A DNA stretch of 64,000 nt from Guyparkeria hydrothermalis (GTDB lineage: Bacteria; Pseudomonadota; Gammaproteobacteria; Halothiobacillales; Halothiobacillaceae), in contig NZ_JAJSED010000001.1 in the NCBI RefSeq assembly GCF_023555385.1, positions 1,364,001 to 1,428,000 of the forward strand. Direction: 5' to 3'. Of this stretch, positions 15,392 through 55,406 are shown piece after piece. Position numbers and translations under genes: made by a program. The notes below the pieces were generated by a model. The model saw only the letters and a program-made list of their open reading frames with translations. It ran no database searches and was not told where the DNA came from. Position 1 is the first letter of the stretch; each line of letters opens with the position of its first letter.

Positions 15392-17152
15392 ATGGATCTT
15401 CAGACACTGATTTACCTGGTGGTTGGCGCCACCTTCGTGTTGTATTTCATCCTCGCGATCGTGGCGCGTGCCGGCACGACCAGCGAGTTCTACGTTGCCG
15501 GCAAGGGGATCAACCCGGTTCTCAACGGCATGGCCACCGCCGCCGACTGGATGTCCGCCGCGTCGTTCATCTCGATGGCGGGCCTGATCGCCTTCAACGG
15601 CTACTCGGCCTCCGCCTACCTGATGGGCTGGACCGGCGGCTACGTACTGCTGGCGATGCTGCTGGCGCCGTACCTGCGCAAGTTCGGCAAGTTCACGGTG
15701 CCGGAATTCATCGGTGACCGCTTCTACTCTAAGACCGCGCGCGTCATCGCCGTCATCGCCCTGCTGGTGATCTCGCTGACCTACGTCATCGGTCAGATGA
15801 AGGGCGTGGGCGTCGCCTTCTCCCGCTTCCTCGAGACCTCGGTCGAGGTCGGCCTGTTCGCGGGCATGGGCATCGTGTTCGTCTACGCGGTACTCGGCGG
15901 CATGAAGGGCATCACCTACACGCAGATCGCGCAGTACGTGATCATGATTTTCGCCTACACCGTCCCGGCGATCTTCATCTCGCTGCAGCTGACCGGCCAC
16001 TTCCTGCCGCAGATCGGCACCGGCGCAGAGCTGACCGACGGCTCGAACCAGTACCTGCTGCAGAAGCTGGACATGATCCTGGTCGACCTCGGTTTCGCCG
16101 AGTACACCGGCACGCCGGACCTGATGAACACCTTCCTGCTGACCCTGGCGCTGATGATCGGTACCGCCGGTCTGCCGCACGTGCTGGTGCGCTTCTTCAC
16201 CGTGCCGCGCGTCCGTGACGCCCGCAAATCGGCCGGCTGGACCCTGCTGTTCATCGCCATCCTCTACACCACCGCCCCGGCCGTTGGCGCCATGGCGATC
16301 TGGAACACCCTGAAGACCGTCCAGCCGGGCGCGATCGGGGCCGAGGAAGGCAACCTGCTGTACGCCGAGCGTCCGGAGTGGTTCAAGAACTGGGAGACCA
16401 CCGGTCTGCTGCAGTTCGAGGACAAGAACGGCGACGGCCGCATCCAGTACTACAACGACAAGAACGAAGAGTTCGCGGCTATGGCCGAAGCCCAGTACGG
16501 CTGGGAAGGCAACGAGCTGTACGTCGACCGCGACATCATGGTGCTGGCCAACCCGGAGATCGCGAAGCTGCCCAACTGGGTAATCGCGCTGATCGCCGCC
16601 GGTGGTATCGCCGCCGCGCTGTCGACCGCAGCGGGCCTGCTGCTGGCGATCTCGTCGGCCATCTCGCATGACTTGCTCAAGGGCGTGATCAAGCCGGACA
16701 TCTCCGAGAAGGGCGAGCTGATGGCCGGCCGGATCTCGATGACCGTAGCAATCGTCATCGCCGGTTACCTCGGTCTCAACCCGCCGGGCTTCGCCGCCCA
16801 GGTGGTGGCACTGGCCTTCGGTCTCGCGGCGAGCTCCCTGTTCCCGGCGCTGATGATGGGGATCTTCTCCAAGCGCATGAACAAGCAGGGCGCCATCGCG
16901 GGCATGCTGGCCGGTCTGACCATCACCCTGCTGTACATCTTCTGGTACAAGGGCTGGTTCTTCATCCCGGGCACCAACATGTTGCCGGACAACGCCGACA
17001 ACTGGATGCTGGGCATCAACCCGACCTCCTTCGGTGCCATCGGTGCTGCGGTGAACTTCATCGTCGCGATTCTGGTCGCGAAGATGACCACCCCGCCGCC
17101 GGCGGAGATCCAGGAGCTGGTCGAGGACGTCCGCGTCCCGCGCGCCAGCTGA
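15392..17152 (+). CDS. Sodium:solute symporter, VC_2705/ActP-like large subunit
   Basis: 586 residues, with about 13 membrane helices. N-terminal motifs (STAR-like AGTTSEFYVAGKGINP, and ADWMSAASFISMAG near 50) identify the solute:sodium symporter family in the acetate permease branch. A hydrophilic insertion near residues 310-390 (GDGRIQYYNDKNEEF, with a possible calcium-loop-like DKNGDG) is characteristic of the VC_2705 subgroup that pairs with DUF4212. Substrate is probably acetate or another short-chain monocarboxylate, by family. It is followed by a strong terminator, so the DUF4212/symporter pair forms a closed unit. Confidence 0.9.
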   Translation: MDLQTLIYLVVGATFVLYFILAIVARAGTTSEFYVAGKGINPVLNGMATAADWMSAASFISMAGLIAFNGYSASAYLMGWTGGYVLLAMLLAPYLRKFGKFTVPEFIGDRFYSKTARVIAVIALLVISLTYVIGQMKGVGVAFSRFLETSVEVGLFAGMGIVFVYAVLGGMKGITYTQIAQYVIMIFAYTVPAIFISLQLTGHFLPQIGTGAELTDGSNQYLLQKLDMILVDLGFAEYTGTPDLMNTFLLTLALMIGTAGLPHVLVRFFTVPRVRDARKSAGWTLLFIAILYTTAPAVGAMAIWNTLKTVQPGAIGAEEGNLLYAERPEWFKNWETTGLLQFEDKNGDGRIQYYNDKNEEFAAMAEAQYGWEGNELYVDRDIMVLANPEIAKLPNWVIALIAAGGIAAALSTAAGLLLAISSAISHDLLKGVIKPDISEKGELMAGRISMTVAIVIAGYLGLNPPGFAAQVVALAFGLAASSLFPALMMGIFSKRMNKQGAIAGMLAGLTITLLYIFWYKGWFFIPGTNMLPDNADNWMLGINPTSFGAIGAAVNFIVAILVAKMTTPPPAEIQELVEDVRVPRAS

Positions 17153-17191
17153 TCGACAGAGGCCGGCAAATGCCGGCCATGAAACAGAAAA

Positions 17192-17217
17192 CCCCGGGCT
17201 CGGCCCGGGGTTTTTTT
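17192..17217 (+). terminator. Strong Rho-independent terminator after the symporter
   Basis: CCCCGGGC (17192-17199) pairs with GCCCGGGG (17203-17210) around a 3-nt loop, followed by seven T residues. A second small hairpin, GGCCGGCAAATGCCGGCC, precedes it at 17161-17178. Confidence 0.92.
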
Positions 17218-17262
17218 GTGTCTGGCGACCGGGATTATCCCGGTGGGGGCGTCCTGTAGCGG

Positions 17263-17568
17263 TTAACGCCCGCCAGCGATCACCCAGCCGGTGATGCCGG
17301 TGAACATTAGGATCACCCCAGCCGGGGCGAGCATCAGCAGGTCCATAAACTGACGCTTGTCCTCGCCGCTGGTAAACACGATAGGCCCCAGCCCGCCGAT
17401 CACGCCCACGGCCGAGAGGATCGCACCGATCACCAGCATGACCTTGGATGCCCGGGCGAACCCGGGCTGAGGCGAGGGAGCCTCGAAGCGATAGGGATCG
17501 CCGATACCCGGCTCGAATTCGTCCTCGGGGGAAGGAGAGTCGGGTCGCTTGTCGGAATGGTCGCTCAT
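17263..17568 (-). CDS. Small two-helix membrane protein of unknown function
   Basis: 101 residues. The first 45 are polar, acidic and proline-rich (EDEFEPGIGDPYRFEAP); two hydrophobic helices follow at about 45-65 and 78-97, with a short charged loop (SGEDKRQ) between them. I do not recognise a named family. The start was set at the ATG preceded by GAGGG 8 nt away rather than at a further upstream codon. It is divergent from pepA with 176 bp between the starts; the shared region contains a plausible minus-10 (TAGACT) for pepA. Confidence 0.65.
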   Translation of the reverse strand: MSDHSDKRPDSPSPEDEFEPGIGDPYRFEAPSPQPGFARASKVMLVIGAILSAVGVIGGLGPIVFTSGEDKRQFMDLLMLAPAGVILMFTGITGWVIAGGR

Positions 17569-17744
17569 CGTGGCACCCTCAGGCGTCTGGGAAAGAGTGT
17601 GAATCCTAGCAGGAGCGGGCACCGGACCCGAAGCACGACCGGCCCGGTCCCGCCTTTTTGCTAGACTGCCGGCTAACGTACCGCGGGATGGTGGCTAACG
17701 TCCCGCGCCCCACCCCACGCACAGCAGAGACGAGGAATATCACC

Positions 17745-19268
17745 GTGCTCGAATTCTCGGTAAAGAGTGGCGCTCCGGAGAAACAGCGTACTGCCTGCCT
17801 AATCGTCGGCGTATTCGAGTCCCGGCGGCTTTCGGATGCGGCCGAGACCATCGACCGCGTCAGCGACGGGTTCATCACGGCGATCACACGGCGCGGGGAC
17901 ATGGACGGCGAACTGGGTGACACCCTGTTGCTGCATGGCGTGCCCAACATCCAGGCCGACCGGGTCATGCTGGTGGGCCTGGGCAAGGAACGCGAGCTGG
18001 ATACGCGTGGGCTGGTCAAGGCGACGCGCGCGGCTGTCGAGGCCCTACACCATCGGGGCACGGCCGAATGCGTCAGCCACCTCTCCGAAATCGACGTACG
18101 CGGCAGCAGCATGGAGCACGTCCTGCGGCAGAGCATCGTCGCGATCGACGATGCGCTATACCGCTTCGACGAACTGAAGACCGACCGTGAGCTCGGTCCG
18201 CGTCGACCTCTTCGCAAGGTCACCTTCATCCTGCCGACGCGTCGCGAACTGATGGAAGCCGAGCGTTACGTGCGCGAGGCCACCGCGATCAGCAACGGCA
18301 TGCGTATGGCGAAGAACCTCGCCAACATGCCGGGCAACCTGCTCACGCCCACCACCATGGCCGAGCATGCGCGCAAGATGACCGAGACCCACCTGCACCT
18401 CTCTGTCGAAGTGCTGGACCAGTCGCGCATGGAATCGCTGGGGATGAATGCCCTGCTCTCGGTGGCCAAAGGCAGCAGCGAGCCGCCGAAGATGATCGTG
18501 ATGGAGCACATGGGCGCGGACAGCGACACCCCGCCGATCGTGCTGGTCGGCAAGGGAGTCACCTTCGATTCCGGCGGCATCTCGCTCAAGCCGGGACCGG
18601 ACATGGACCAGATGAAGTTCGACATGGGCGGCGCGGCGGCCACCATCGGCGTGATGTCCGCGGTTGCCGAGATGCAGCTGCCCATCAACGTCGTCGGCAT
18701 CGTCCCCACCGTGGAGAACATGCCGGGCGGTGCGGCGCTCAAGCCGGGCGACGTGATCCGCAGCATGTCCGGGCAGACCATCGAGGTTCTGAACACCGAT
18801 GCCGAGGGCCGGCTGATTCTCTGCGACGCGCTGACCTACGCGGCCGGCTACAAGCCGGCAGCCATTGTCGACATCGCCACGCTCACCGGCGCCTGCATCG
18901 TCGCCCTGGGCCGTCACCCCAGCGGCCTGCTCTCCAACCACGACGCTCTCGCCCGGGAACTGCTCAGGGCAGGCGACACTGCCAATGACCGCGCCTGGCA
19001 GTTGCCGCTGTGGGACGAGTACCAGGACCAGCTGAAGAGCAACTTTGCCGACATGGCCAATATCGGTGGACGCGAAGGGGGAACCATCACCGCAGCCGCC
19101 TTCCTTTCACGCTTCGTGCGCGAACATCACTGGGCCCACCTCGACATTGCCGGCACTGCCTGGAAGACCGGCGAGGCGAAGGGCGCCACCGGCCGGCCGG
19201 TCCCGTTGCTCACCGAATTCCTGATGAACCGCGCTCGCCAGCAGCAGGAAGGGAACAACAACGGGTGA
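17745..19268 (+). CDS. pepA: Leucyl aminopeptidase PepA (M17)
   Basis: 507 residues when started at GTG 17745; this aligns the first residues (LEFSVKSGAPEKQR) with E. coli PepA, and GAGGA lies 8 nt upstream. PepA is a cytosolic hexameric dizinc/manganese aminopeptidase removing N-terminal residues; in E. coli it also binds DNA at cer sites and the carAB promoter. The metal-binding and catalytic motifs are intact: GKGVTFDSGGISLKPG, and NTDAEGRLILCDALTY in the C-terminal domain. Its terminator hairpin directly downstream has been split by an insertion sequence, so transcription probably continues to the IS left end. Confidence 0.96.
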   Translation: MLEFSVKSGAPEKQRTACLIVGVFESRRLSDAAETIDRVSDGFITAITRRGDMDGELGDTLLLHGVPNIQADRVMLVGLGKERELDTRGLVKATRAAVEALHHRGTAECVSHLSEIDVRGSSMEHVLRQSIVAIDDALYRFDELKTDRELGPRRPLRKVTFILPTRRELMEAERYVREATAISNGMRMAKNLANMPGNLLTPTTMAEHARKMTETHLHLSVEVLDQSRMESLGMNALLSVAKGSSEPPKMIVMEHMGADSDTPPIVLVGKGVTFDSGGISLKPGPDMDQMKFDMGGAAATIGVMSAVAEMQLPINVVGIVPTVENMPGGAALKPGDVIRSMSGQTIEVLNTDAEGRLILCDALTYAAGYKPAAIVDIATLTGACIVALGRHPSGLLSNHDALARELLRAGDTANDRAWQLPLWDEYQDQLKSNFADMANIGGREGGTITAAAFLSRFVREHHWAHLDIAGTAWKTGEAKGATGRPVPLLTEFLMNRARQQQEGNNNG

Positions 19269-19307: not shown

Positions 19308-19317
19308 AACGCCCCCG
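19308..19317 (+). terminator. Left arm of the interrupted pepA terminator
   Basis: AACGCCCCCG forms the 5' arm of a hairpin whose 3' arm (CGGGGGCGTT) is now at 20781-20790, on the far side of the insertion sequence. Removing the IS and one TCAT copy restores a 10-bp stem with loop GTCAT followed by TTTTGT. Confidence 0.85.
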
Positions 19318-19318
19318 G

Positions 19319-19322
19319 TCAT
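19319..19322 (+). repeat. 4-bp target-site duplication (TCAT), left copy
   Basis: TCAT here is repeated at 20777-20780 immediately outside the right terminal repeat. IS150-group elements usually create 3-4 bp duplications. Confidence 0.8.
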
Positions 19323-19330
19323 TGAAGTGA

Positions 19331-19366
19331 CCCCTGTCAGTTGGACAACAGTCCAACTGACAGGGG
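19331..19366 (+). promoter_or_regulatory. 16-bp perfect hairpin at the IS left end covering the transposase ribosome site
   Basis: Arms CCCCTGTCAGTTGGAC (19331-19346) and GTCCAACTGACAGGGG (19351-19366) flank loop AACA, then TTTCTTT and the orfA ATG (19374). The only ribosome-binding sequence, AGGGG at 19362-19366, is the end of the 3' arm. RNA read in from pepA would fold and hide it; the T-rich stretch could also terminate. A transcript starting inside the element downstream of the first arm would escape. By analogy, IS10 and IS50 protect themselves from external transcription in this way. Confidence 0.75.
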
Positions 19367-19373
19367 TTTCTTT

Positions 19374-19907
19374 ATGACCAAGTATTCGGAGTCATTCCGG
19401 CTCGCCGTCGTGCAGCACTATCAACAATCATCAGAAGGCAGCACCGCGACGGCAAGGCGGTTCGGTATCGACAGCGGGAGTGTTCGACGATGGTCGGCGG
19501 CTTATGAAGAGCATGGGCCGGAAGGCCTTCGCTGCGCAGGTGCCCGCTATTCGGCAACGTTCAAGCGTCAGGTGCTATCCACGATGGAATCGGAAGGGTG
19601 GTCCGTGCGGCACACCTGTGCGATGTTCAAGATTGCGGCATCGACCACGGTGCGCAAATGGCAGCGTGACTTTGTCCAGGGTGGGATGGCAGCGCTGGAG
19701 TCCAAACGCAGCAAGAGGCGCACTCTCATGGCCAAGCACAAACCTCATTCGCCACCGTTACCCGAACGCCGCAAGGCCACGGAAAACATGACGACGGACG
19801 AGCTGCATGAGCGCTTGGCCTATCTTGAGGCGGAGAATGCTTATCTAAAAAAGCTGAAAGCCTTGGCCCAGGAAAAGCGATCCGCCGAGAAGAAAAGGCG
19901 CGACTGA
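19374..19907 (+). CDS. IS3-family transposase OrfA (helix-turn-helix subunit)
   Basis: 177 residues. The N-terminal half holds two helix-turn-helix modules (YSESFRLAVVQHY...TARRFGIDSGSVRRW, and a second with TFKRQVL...AMFKIAASTTVRKW). The C-terminus is a leucine-zipper-like coiled coil (ELHERLAYLEAENAYLKKLKAL), typical of OrfA in the IS150 subgroup. OrfA binds terminal repeats and modulates transposition. The start was put at the ATG following the left-end hairpin. Near the end it contains the slippery heptamer where ribosomes can slip to the OrfB frame. Confidence 0.93.
   Translation: MTKYSESFRLAVVQHYQQSSEGSTATARRFGIDSGSVRRWSAAYEEHGPEGLRCAGARYSATFKRQVLSTMESEGWSVRHTCAMFKIAASTTVRKWQRDFVQGGMAALESKRSKRRTLMAKHKPHSPPLPERRKATENMTTDELHERLAYLEAENAYLKKLKALAQEKRSAEKKRRD
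19847..19853 (+). other. A AAA AAG ribosomal slippery site (programmed -1 frameshift)
   Basis: In the orfA frame the codons read CTA AAA AAG. Slipping back one base at AAAAAAG continues in the orfB frame, which is open from here to 20746, giving an OrfAB fusion transposase. This is the known frameshift motif of IS150-type elements. Confidence 0.85.
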
Positions 19908-19942
19908 TCACCGAACTGAGACCAAGGCACGCCCTCAAGTGG

Positions 19943-20746
19943 TTGCTCAAGGCAGCCCGAATGGCTCGCAGCGTGTATTACTACTGGCTGAGAGCCTCCC
20001 GCCGGCCGGAGCGATATGCCGATGAGAAGCGGCACATCGCCGCCATCTTTCATCGGCACAAGGGGCGTTACGGATACCGCCGTATCACCTGGACCCTACG
20101 CCGTCAGGGACGGCCGCTGAACCACAAGACCGTGCAACGCCTGATGGGGCAATTGGGCTTGGCTTCCCGCATTCGCCCGAAACGGTATCGCTCATACCGT
20201 GGCGAGGAGGGCCTGGCAGCCCCGAACCATCTCAGGCGTCGCTTCGAGACGGACCGGCCCAACCACAAGTGGGTCACCGACGTGACCGAGTTCAAGGTTC
20301 GGGGTGAGCGCGTCTACCTATCGCCGGTTCTGGATCTCTACAACCAGGAGATTGTCGCCTACGAAATCGCACGCAGCCCTCGATTGCCGCTGGTCATGAC
20401 GATGCTAGACCGGGCCTTGAGGCGCCTGAATGCGGGTGAGGCGCCGATGTTGCACTCCGATCAGGGGTGGCAGTACCGGATGGCCCCTTACCGACAGACG
20501 CTACACCGACATGGCATCGAGCTGAGCATGTCCCGAAGGGGCAATTGCCTCGACAACGCCGTCATGGAGAATTTCTTCGGGATTCTGAAGACGGAATGCT
20601 TCCATGGGCAGCGGTTCAGTAGCGTCGAGTCGTTCGTCGCCGAGCTCAAGCGCTACATCCACTACTACAACCACGACCGGATCAAGGACAAACTAAAAGG
20701 CCTGAGCCCCGTGGAATACAGGACTCAGGCCTTGGTGCCCGGCTAA
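19943..20746 (+). CDS. IS3-family transposase OrfB (DDE integrase catalytic domain)
   Basis: 267 residues if counted from the first possible TTG start; it is more likely translated as the second half of an OrfAB frameshift product, because its frame is open back to 19853. It contains an HTH_21-type segment (KRHIAAIFHRHKGRYGYRRI), then an rve integrase core with the catalytic triad: Asp in KWVTDVTEF, Asp in LHSDQGWQY, and Glu in NAVMENFFGILKTE, with the usual 35-residue spacing. The K/R residue seven positions after Glu is present. No stop or frameshift damages the gene. Confidence 0.93.
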   Translation: MLKAARMARSVYYYWLRASRRPERYADEKRHIAAIFHRHKGRYGYRRITWTLRRQGRPLNHKTVQRLMGQLGLASRIRPKRYRSYRGEEGLAAPNHLRRRFETDRPNHKWVTDVTEFKVRGERVYLSPVLDLYNQEIVAYEIARSPRLPLVMTMLDRALRRLNAGEAPMLHSDQGWQYRMAPYRQTLHRHGIELSMSRRGNCLDNAVMENFFGILKTECFHGQRFSSVESFVAELKRYIHYYNHDRIKDKLKGLSPVEYRTQALVPG

Positions 20747-20780
20747 CTAACCGTCCAACTTTTGGGGGTCAGTTCATCAT

Positions 20781-20792
20781 CGGGGGCGTTTT
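20781..20792 (+). terminator. Right arm and T-tract of the interrupted pepA terminator
   Basis: CGGGGGCGTT followed by TTGTGT is the complement of AACGCCCCCG at 19308-19317. It now lies after the IS right end and can no longer fold with its partner in a normal-sized loop. Confidence 0.85.
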
Positions 20793-20820
20793 GTGTCGGG
20801 CCGGAAAAAAATGGGGCGGA

Positions 20821-21342
20821 TCAGCCCTGCTCAGCGGCACGCGCCAAATTACGGCGTCGCTGCTGGCGCTTTCGCTCCGGCAGATTCTCGTAGAGCCGAT
20901 CACGCAGGGCGATCATGAAGCGCTCCACATCCTGAATGCTCACGCCGGGAACATCCACCTCGGTGAAAGTGCGGGCATAGAGCTTCTCGGCACTGGCACG
21001 TATCTCGTCGATCAGCGGCAGGGCGCGTTCGGTCAGACGGATGATCTTGCAGCGGCGATCGGTACCGCACTGGACCCGCTCGACCCACTCATCGCGTGAC
21101 AGGCGATCGACCATGGCAACCAGCGACGGGCCCTCGATACCCAGCTCCTCGGCCAATTCCGACTGGATGAGGCCCTCGGGATACAGCGACAAAATCGCCA
21201 TCGTCCGCCACTTGGCCTGACTCAAGCCGTGGTGGGCAAGCTCATGATCAAGCAGCTGGCGCCACAACTGGTCGACGCGGTGCAGCAGCACCGGCACGCG
21301 GTCCTCGGCACAGATGTCGAATTCGGTTTTCAAGTCGGCCAT
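20821..21342 (-). CDS. MarR/SlyA-family transcriptional regulator
   Basis: 173 residues. A winged helix-turn-helix domain is visible: LSQAKWRTMAIL, GLIQSELAEELGIEGPSLVAMVDRL as the recognition region, and the wing DRRCKIIRLTERA. This layout is closest to SlyA within MarR. Dimeric regulators of this type respond to small molecules and control efflux, stress or virulence genes, and usually their own gene. The start was set at the ATG with AAGGGG 8 nt upstream. A SlyA-like palindrome lies about 90 bp upstream of the start. It is convergent with the IS; the target genes are unknown. Confidence 0.88.
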   Translation of the reverse strand: MADLKTEFDICAEDRVPVLLHRVDQLWRQLLDHELAHHGLSQAKWRTMAILSLYPEGLIQSELAEELGIEGPSLVAMVDRLSRDEWVERVQCGTDRRCKIIRLTERALPLIDEIRASAEKLYARTFTEVDVPGVSIQDVERFMIALRDRLYENLPERKRQQRRRNLARAAEQG

Positions 21343-21432
21343 GCGGGGCCCCTTCGTGGGAGGGAAACGGTCTTGTCCGGACGTCCTGACCGGGACATTC
21401 ATTCTGCCACCCCGGCCCGGCCCCTCCAACTA

Positions 21433-53827: not shown

Positions 53828-55406
53828 CGCCACCCTCGTCCGAGGTCGATTGAAGGATGCGCCAGCCGCCGGCCGCAGCCGATCGGCCGTTGACGACGGC
53901 ACGAATCGAATCGCCCAGCTCGCCGGCTGCCATGCCCCATTCGCCATGACGTTCGGCCTCGATTTCGCCAGCCTCGGCGTGCACGCAGACCGCCGCTTCC
54001 ATCGCCGTGAATCGCGCCATGCCCATGCCGACGAAGGCGCCCAGCACGCCGGCCAGCACGTCGCCGCTGCCGGCGGTCGCCAGAGCGGCCGTACCGCGCT
54101 GGCATACGGCCAGACGCTCGCCGCCGGTCAGCACGGTACCGGCGCCCTTGAGCACTACCGCGCAACCGAATCGCTCCGACAGCGCGCGCGCAGAGCGCAG
54201 GCGGTCGGCATTGATGTCGGTCGCGCCACACTCGAGCATTGCAGCCGCCTCGCCCGGATGCGGTGTGACAATCGCCTCGCGTCCCTCGAGCGACTGCGGT
54301 CCCAGCAGTCGCAGGGCATCGGCATCGACGACCAGCGGCAACGGGCAGTCCCGCAGCGCCCGCCAGGCCTCAACAGCCCAGCGATCGCGTCCCAGCCCCG
54401 GCCCGACAACCACGGCCGTGGCCTCACCCGCCAGCCGCAGCAGGTCGCGGGCATTCTCGATGCCGTGGACAATCAGTTCGGGACGGCCGATATTGAGGGT
54501 TGCCGCATGCGCGGGGTGAGTGGCGACGATGACCTTGCCAGCCCCCACCCGCAATGCACCCTCGGCCGCGAGCCGTGCCGCGCCGGGCATGCCGCGATTG
54601 CCCGCGACGATCAGCACCGTGCCGAAGCTCCCCTTGTGCCCGTCACGTGGGCGCGCTGCCAGACGCAGACCACCCGGCAGCAATGGCACGCCCCCTGCCC
54701 GCTCACTCACCGGGTGGCCCAGTTCGGCCAGCACGCGCTCGCCACAGGCGGCCAGTGCCGGCCCAGTGGTCAACCCGCGCTTGATGCCGAGGAAGGTCAC
54801 GGTGACATCCGCGGTCAGTGTCAACGGGTCGAGCGCACCGGTATCGGCATTCACGCCGGACGGCAGGTCCACCGCCAGCACGCCCGGGCATTGCCGCAGG
54901 CCGTCGAGTTCGTCTCCGACCCGCTCGAGAAACTCGGCCGCATCGCCGGCGATCGGCCGCGACAGGCCGACGCCGAACAGAGCATCGACCACCACTTCGG
55001 CCCGCTCGAACGCGCTGGCCACAGCCTCGGGGGCCACTGCAACCTCGATCGCCGGCAAGGCCTCCCGCAGTGCGGCCCAGGCATGCGCGGCGCTGCCGTG
55101 AAATTCGGGCTGCTGCCAGCCCAGCAAACTCACATCGAGACCGGCCTGATGTGCCAGGCGGGCGATCACCAGCCCGTCACCGCCGTTCTGCCCCGGGCCG
55201 ATAAGCACCGCCAGCCGCCCGGCCTCGGGCCAGCGACGGCGCAGCTCAAGGAAGGCCGCCTCGCCGGCACGCTCCATCAGCCCGTAGGCATCCACCCCGC
55301 CGGCGAAGAGCTCGCGTTCGTGGGCCTGGACCGCCTCGACCGACCAGGCCCGCATCAGGCCGGGCGCGACCGGCGTTCGGATCAGCTGTGGCGCGCGGGC
55401 CGGCAT
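53814..55406 (-). CDS. nnr: Bifunctional NAD(P)H-hydrate epimerase/dehydratase (YjeF/Nnr)
   Basis: 530 residues. The N-terminal epimerase domain (about 20-220) has GLMERAGEAAF and GPGQNGGDGLVIAR; the C-terminal ADP-dependent dehydratase domain contains VIVATHPAHA, VVVGPGLGRD, VTPHPGEAAAML and ATAGSGDVLAGVLGAF. It repairs hydrated NADH/NADPH. Located between trpS and tsaE; the yjeF-tsaE-amiC-mutL series is conserved in gammaproteobacteria. Starts 4 bp after the trpS stop codon. Confidence 0.95.
   Translation of the reverse strand: MPARAPQLIRTPVAPGLMRAWSVEAVQAHERELFAGGVDAYGLMERAGEAAFLELRRRWPEAGRLAVLIGPGQNGGDGLVIARLAHQAGLDVSLLGWQQPEFHGSAAHAWAALREALPAIEVAVAPEAVASAFERAEVVVDALFGVGLSRPIAGDAAEFLERVGDELDGLRQCPGVLAVDLPSGVNADTGALDPLTLTADVTVTFLGIKRGLTTGPALAACGERVLAELGHPVSERAGGVPLLPGGLRLAARPRDGHKGSFGTVLIVAGNRGMPGAARLAAEGALRVGAGKVIVATHPAHAATLNIGRPELIVHGIENARDLLRLAGEATAVVVGPGLGRDRWAVEAWRALRDCPLPLVVDADALRLLGPQSLEGREAIVTPHPGEAAAMLECGATDINADRLRSARALSERFGCAVVLKGAGTVLTGGERLAVCQRGTAALATAGSGDVLAGVLGAFVGMGMARFTAMEAAVCVHAEAGEIEAERHGEWGMAAGELGDSIRAVVNGRSAAAGGWRILQSTSDEGGDGDG

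Follow-up and report, generated by a model that had tools for sequence, protein, structure and literature searches.

Results

An IS150-group element lies in the loop of the pepA terminator

In the 64,000-nucleotide stretch of DNA that was analysed (the window), the leucyl aminopeptidase gene pepA (17658–19268, plus strand; M17 family, Peptidase_M17 match with E 2.6e-129) converges with an ORF for a MarR/SlyA-type regulator assigned from its domain matches (20821–21429, minus strand). The bidirectional terminator common to both genes is split by an insertion sequence (19323–20776, plus strand, 1454 bp). On its left, the sequence reads AACGCCCCCG-G-TCAT (19308–19322), i.e. the left stem arm AACGCCCCCG (19308–19317) followed by the left target duplication TCAT (19319–19322), which lies within the loop GTCAT; on its right, it reads TCAT-CGGGGGCGTT-TTGT (20777–20794), i.e. 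the right duplication (20777–20780) followed by the right stem arm CGGGGGCGTT (20781–20790) and TTGT, all on the plus strand. A repeat finder identified AACGCCCCCG and CGGGGGCGTT as an inverted-repeat pair. Deletion in silico of the element and one TCAT restored a 10-bp stem of these two arms with the loop GTCAT, and the rebuilt 42-nt empty site folded with -24.4 kcal/mol (z -4.0). The preliminary description had placed an IS in the loop of the pepA terminator, with a perfect 10-bp stem and a 5-nt loop once the IS and one TCAT are removed, and both statements were borne out.

The preliminary description had also proposed a comparison with sister genomes lacking the element. At the corresponding position 3' of pepA, the same-genus genome G005 carries the uninterrupted sequence AAAAACGCCCCCG-ATCGC-CGGGGGCGTTTTT, an empty site including the stem, and further congeners (loci L005 and L007–L010) have related terminator-like hairpins at the pepA position. 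Because G005 and these other congeners have a hairpin there, the empty site is real. A hairpin as good as that at the pepA junction was found at only ~1–2% of other flanking positions.

The element is structurally complete, is present as a single copy in its own genome, and is bounded by the ends TGAAGTGACCCC...GGGGGTCAGTTCA, which are TG...CA inverted repeats. It contains orfA (19374–19907, plus strand), which encodes a helix-turn-helix protein according to domain matches, and an overlapping orfB frame (19829–20746, plus strand) in the -1 frame relative to orfA, as in the IS150 group of the IS3 family; orfB is open from 19829 and its first listed start is TTG at 19943. An A6G slippery motif lies in the overlap (19847–19853, plus strand) and, by analogy with the IS3 family, probably directs -1 frameshifting from orfA to orfB. 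OrfB is an integrase-core transposase that matches NCBIfam transpos_IS3 (E 2.8e-98) as well as rve domains, and the DD(35)E spacing can be read off its translation. With the helix-turn-helix of OrfA, the A6G motif and the open orfB frame, the transposase looks intact. Together with the TG...CA ends and a target duplication within the 3–4 bp of the IS3 family, these features confirm the IS3-family label given earlier. Moreover, in a quick transposase tree with long control branches, IS150 fell inside the clade of the element and four control subgroup rows fell outside, which places the element in the IS150 group.

The element carries terminator-like hairpins at both ends

Folding and a terminator scan revealed an inward-facing terminator-like hairpin at the left end of the element (19329–19373, plus strand) with an 18 bp stem, the loop AACA and a T-run (fold -40.5 kcal/mol, z -8.2). 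This hairpin lies ~60 nt past the pepA stop codon and is followed by TTTCTTT and then the orfA ATG. A second inward-facing terminator-like hairpin, supported by the scan and by co-variation, lies inside the 3' end of orfB on the opposite strand (20687–20733, minus strand); it reads AAGGCCTGAGTCCTGT-ATTCC-ACGGGGCTCAGGCCTT followed by the T-run TTTAGTTTG, and overlaps the codons for KLKGLSPVEYRTQAL.

Both hairpins are conserved in the clade. Stability exceeded that of shuffled sequences (z<-2) for the left hairpin in 44 of the 49 clade members and for the right hairpin in 46 of 49, compared with 0/8 and 0/8, respectively, in control elements of other IS3 subgroups. In most members, each hairpin is followed by a T-run, which is on the sense strand for the left end and on the antisense strand for the right end. 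The only Rfam match was a chance one to a miRNA, far under the cut-off.

In the right hairpin, stem positions paired at 94.5% among 43 distinct sequences, compared with 84.9% when columns were shuffled and 67.1% when synonymous codons were shuffled. Fifty-nine cells of the stem were changed on both sides; shared ancestry inflates this count, but different pair types occur nonetheless in well-separated branches. A glycine codon changes together with the codon of the residue 10 codons on (GGC/GCC for Ala, GGA/TCC for Ser, GGG/CCC for Pro and GGT/ACC for Thr at the second position), and CTG, TTG and ATG accompany CAG, CAA and CAT, respectively, the ATG/CAT pair switching Leu-Gln to Met-His. Because compensatory changes even alter amino acids, the right hairpin appears to be maintained by selection acting on the nucleic acid.

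These data bear on two statements about the fate of the pepA terminator. That the terminator was disabled holds for the old hairpin, which is split; however, pepA is now followed by a stronger terminator-like hairpin, and the convergent gene faces a further one. That the left-end hairpin replaces the lost terminator agrees with the conserved anatomy and is extended by the antisense hairpin found at the opposite end; from sequence features, both hairpins would terminate transcription and so replace the split terminator.

A 51-bp mini-element was observed in a congener (L043; G008:C48, ~55081–55131). It consists of the left-end hairpin closed by right-end sequence, has the duplication GATG and lies in the terminator loop AATCCGCCCGGATG/GATGGGCGGATTTTT; since it is itself palindromic, this terminator can still fold, as a longer hairpin.

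Most related elements sampled are inserted in hairpins of different sequence

It had been proposed to list the target sites of all other copies in the genome and in relatives. Because the genome itself has a single copy, we used relatives as the test. Relatives spanning Pseudomonadota and Bacillota were collected by OrfB similarity alone, without regard to the insertion site; element ends were set from inverted repeats and duplications, and 62 empty sites were rebuilt. A site was scored as passing if its hairpin exceeded the 99th percentile of random flank positions. By this measure, a junction-spanning hairpin was present in 48 of the 62 sites, while 1.7% of control positions 40–150 bp from the junction passed. 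Hairpins are thus enriched at the target sites, and structure-directed targeting, which the preliminary description had only hinted at, is strongly supported by these independent copies. About one-fifth of the sampled sites were below the cut-off, comprising some that are truncated or have uncertain ends, some REP-type palindromes and a few plain exceptions.

Individual genomes gave a similar picture. In four congeners (G001, G006, G007 and G008), copies lie between an A-tract/GC arm on the left and a GC arm/T-tract on the right, and the stem arms differ at every site. In one Vibrionales genome, the copies are near-identical and recent; 10 of the 11 pass and the 11th is at the cut-off, and all sites are different. 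In E. coli, relatives are inserted in the ugd and ssrA terminators, and the unbroken ssrA hairpin is seen in another E. coli strain. By contrast, 1 of 10 copies of other IS3 subgroups from the same bacterial family had a hairpin site. This one copy (L144; G041:C22 18692–19710), with ends AGCGGCG..., lies in the 15-bp palindrome GGTAATCCCCCC/GGGGGGATTACC with the duplication AAAAAT. Two flank pairs in G007 (L049/L041 and L202/L182) have matching arms and unequal putative duplications (ACAA vs CATT and GTTG vs ATCG, respectively). They are located close to the ends of contigs or on opposite strands, and may reflect either two copies in similar terminators or an artefact of assembly.

The innermost eight arm positions paired at 97.1%, a value that is partly high from choosing the best stem within passing sites; when right arms were swapped between sites, pairing dropped to 37.2% (maximum 47.7% in 2000 swaps). 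Single arm columns carried 0.1–0.8 bit; A-tract and GC-rich steps were over-represented in the arms, and the information in some columns was as high as 0.5–0.8 bit. The duplications, mostly 3–4 bp and located in or beside the loop, were 3–5 bp long at 43 of the 48 strong sites, and their sequences were nearly all different among sites. In total, the swap control shows, at the level of sequence, that the arms are site-specific and without consensus, the common feature being a palindrome and not a sequence.

A fixed orientation of the element relative to the T-tract, which was apparent in the first right flanks, was dropped as a candidate: A- and T-tracts were equally strong on the left and on the right, and the directions of the flanking genes, assigned by a rough longest-ORF rule, showed no significant orientation bias (++ 6, -- 15), convergent pairs being the commonest arrangement (29 of 62). 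The lack of a significant orientation bias and the symmetric tracts fit the recognition of a twofold-symmetric palindrome.

IS150 insertions at hok/sok loci coincide with a hairpin

IS150, which lies inside the clade of the window element, has the right antisense hairpin and, unlike the window element, is without a left-end hairpin. The seven sampled E. coli IS150 copies (L209–L215) are all adjacent to hok/mok genes, and the GCCCC and GAGGC arms on either side of them resemble the terminator of the antisense RNA Sok. In an evolution experiment, IS150 inserted at hokC/nhaA at positions 16,972 and 16,989, and it also inserts within genes in such experiments (PMC5419217). Both hokC/nhaA insertions fall in the corresponding hairpin (L226, E. 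coli REL606 16700–17300). Thus, IS150 insertions that were read as adaptive toxin loss may instead reflect target preference.

Discussion

Altogether, we propose that a clade of IS150-group IS3 elements inserts into the loops of intrinsic terminators by structure, and that the terminators at the ends of the element replace the broken one; we put the probability of this reading at about three in four. Points against it are the roughly one-fifth of sites below the hairpin cut-off, the contribution of stem choice to the pairing value, and IS150, which belongs to the clade yet is without the left hairpin and also inserts within genes. The transposase would recognise a palindromic target, as a hairpin or a cruciform, and not a sequence; that the hairpin form itself is recognised is suggested by the sequence comparisons above. 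The cuts of strand transfer would be 3–4 nt apart, within the loop or next to it, and since the target is twofold symmetric the element could insert in either orientation. IS3 elements transpose through a circular intermediate with abutted ends. The hairpin target is perhaps accepted because these abutted ends form a palindrome with a 3–4 nt spacer. After insertion, the two inward terminators (the left in sense, the right antisense in orfB) would halt transcripts from flanking genes soon after they enter the element. In the case of the pepA locus, the pepA and marR transcripts would be stopped in this way, so that the split terminator would be replaced, and the transposase gene would be shielded against read-through. 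Insertions are probably tolerated because the end hairpins terminate transcription.

Four other explanations were weighed. Insertion might be random or weakly intergenic, with purifying selection sparing harmless places such as the terminators of convergent genes, which is the neutral refuge that the preliminary description had considered. Convergent pairs are indeed the commonest context, and insertions in terminators should be mild, as the IS brings its own hairpins. However, the junctions fall within the loop itself or next to it, although most positions 40–150 bp away, where 1.7% pass, would be equally harmless; the recent, almost identical copies of the Vibrionales genome sit in hairpins at different sites; and elements of other IS3 subgroups, which face equal selection, do not sit in hairpins in this way. 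We therefore consider this explanation quite improbable, and as a sole account it leaves insertion into the loops themselves unexplained. It is likewise improbable that the transposase recognises some short sequence that terminators have in common, e.g. an A-tract followed by a GC-rich stretch, with the hairpin being incidental. The enrichment for such steps in the arms speaks for this idea, but most columns have low information, pairing drops upon swapping of the right arms (97% to 37%), the duplication sequences vary, and insertions also occur in palindromes that have no T-tract, namely those of the REP and Pseudomonas types.

The function of the end hairpins could also be a different one. 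They may not mainly be substitutes for terminators: in read-through transcripts, the left one would hide the ribosome site of orfA, while the right one would have another role, e.g. in mRNA stability or in the control of antisense RNA. Protective hairpins that hide a ribosome site are known in other IS, and AGGGG lies in the 3' arm of the left hairpin a few nt 5' of the orfA ATG; on the other hand, the hairpins are followed by T-runs in most members, in sense on the left and in antisense on the right, and control of orfA translation leaves an antisense hairpin with a T-run at the 3' end of orfB unexplained. As the main role we regard this as possible but doubtful; the left hairpin may additionally hide the orfA ribosome site, and the two roles may both be present. 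Finally, the element could be an ordinary REP/PU-targeting element like ISKpn1, with the pepA hairpin being a copy of a repeated palindrome. While ISKpn1 is in the same clade and targets palindromes (PMC1525189), hairpins with the pepA stem are present at just two further sites of the genome, the stems at the sites of sister copies are all different, and the target of the pepA element is not a repeated REP palindrome of the ISKpn1/IS1397 type. We consider this last explanation very improbable.

Beyond terminator-loop targeting with replacement by end terminators, we lean slightly towards a broader interpretation, in which a phylum-spanning IS3 lineage captures cruciform or hairpin palindromes of any sequence. 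The element would be a terminator cassette in which two inward terminators, one of them antisense in the transposase gene and costing amino-acid choice, substitute for a split bidirectional terminator, and REP-specific ISKpn1 would represent a later narrowing.

If the proposal is correct, a widespread transposase family picks its targets by nucleic-acid structure, following an insertion rule that is sequence-independent yet safe, and the transposase offers a natural means of probing cruciforms or terminators in vivo. It would also explain how the elements spread with little harm, because they swap terminators, and would give a structural reason for recurrent insertions read as adaptive, such as those of IS150 at hok/sok loci.

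Among known IS3 elements, ISKpn1 and IS1397 insert into REP palindromes (PMC1525189). ISKpn1 is in the same clade of the transposase tree as the window element, its OrfB is ~58% identical, its ends are similar and it has the right-end antisense hairpin. However, ISKpn1 and IS1397 target a repeated REP sequence, whereas the lineage of the window element targets many unrelated terminator hairpins. In the quick tree with its long control branches, elements inserted in terminator loops surround ISKpn1 as well as a set of Pseudomonas elements that insert into palindromes. Four Pseudomonas clade members (L100, L101, L103 and L106) lie in the recurring palindromes GTGTCCACTTA/TAGGTGGACAC or GTCCGC/GCGGAC, which have no T-run, and the ends of these elements are also without T-runs; besides ISKpn1, they are a possible second shift from a terminator to a REP-like target.

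IS1272 and TnSha1 of the IS1182 family insert into hairpins, many of them terminators, in both orientations and with no primary sequence consensus (PMC4923244), and hairpin or terminator targets without a sequence consensus are likewise those of the lineage described here. Their transposase family is unrelated, however, and they make a blunt cut with part of the stem being deleted and no target duplication (PMC4923244), whereas at the pepA site both arms are kept and TCAT is duplicated, the duplications in the clade being 3–5 bp. Our literature search, which had subscription papers mostly outside its reach, found no report of terminator-loop targeting in IS3 elements. Hairpin targeting by IS is thus already known; as far as this search shows, what is new is duplication-making targeting of terminator loops across a wide IS3 clade, together with paired inward end hairpins of which one is antisense within orfB.
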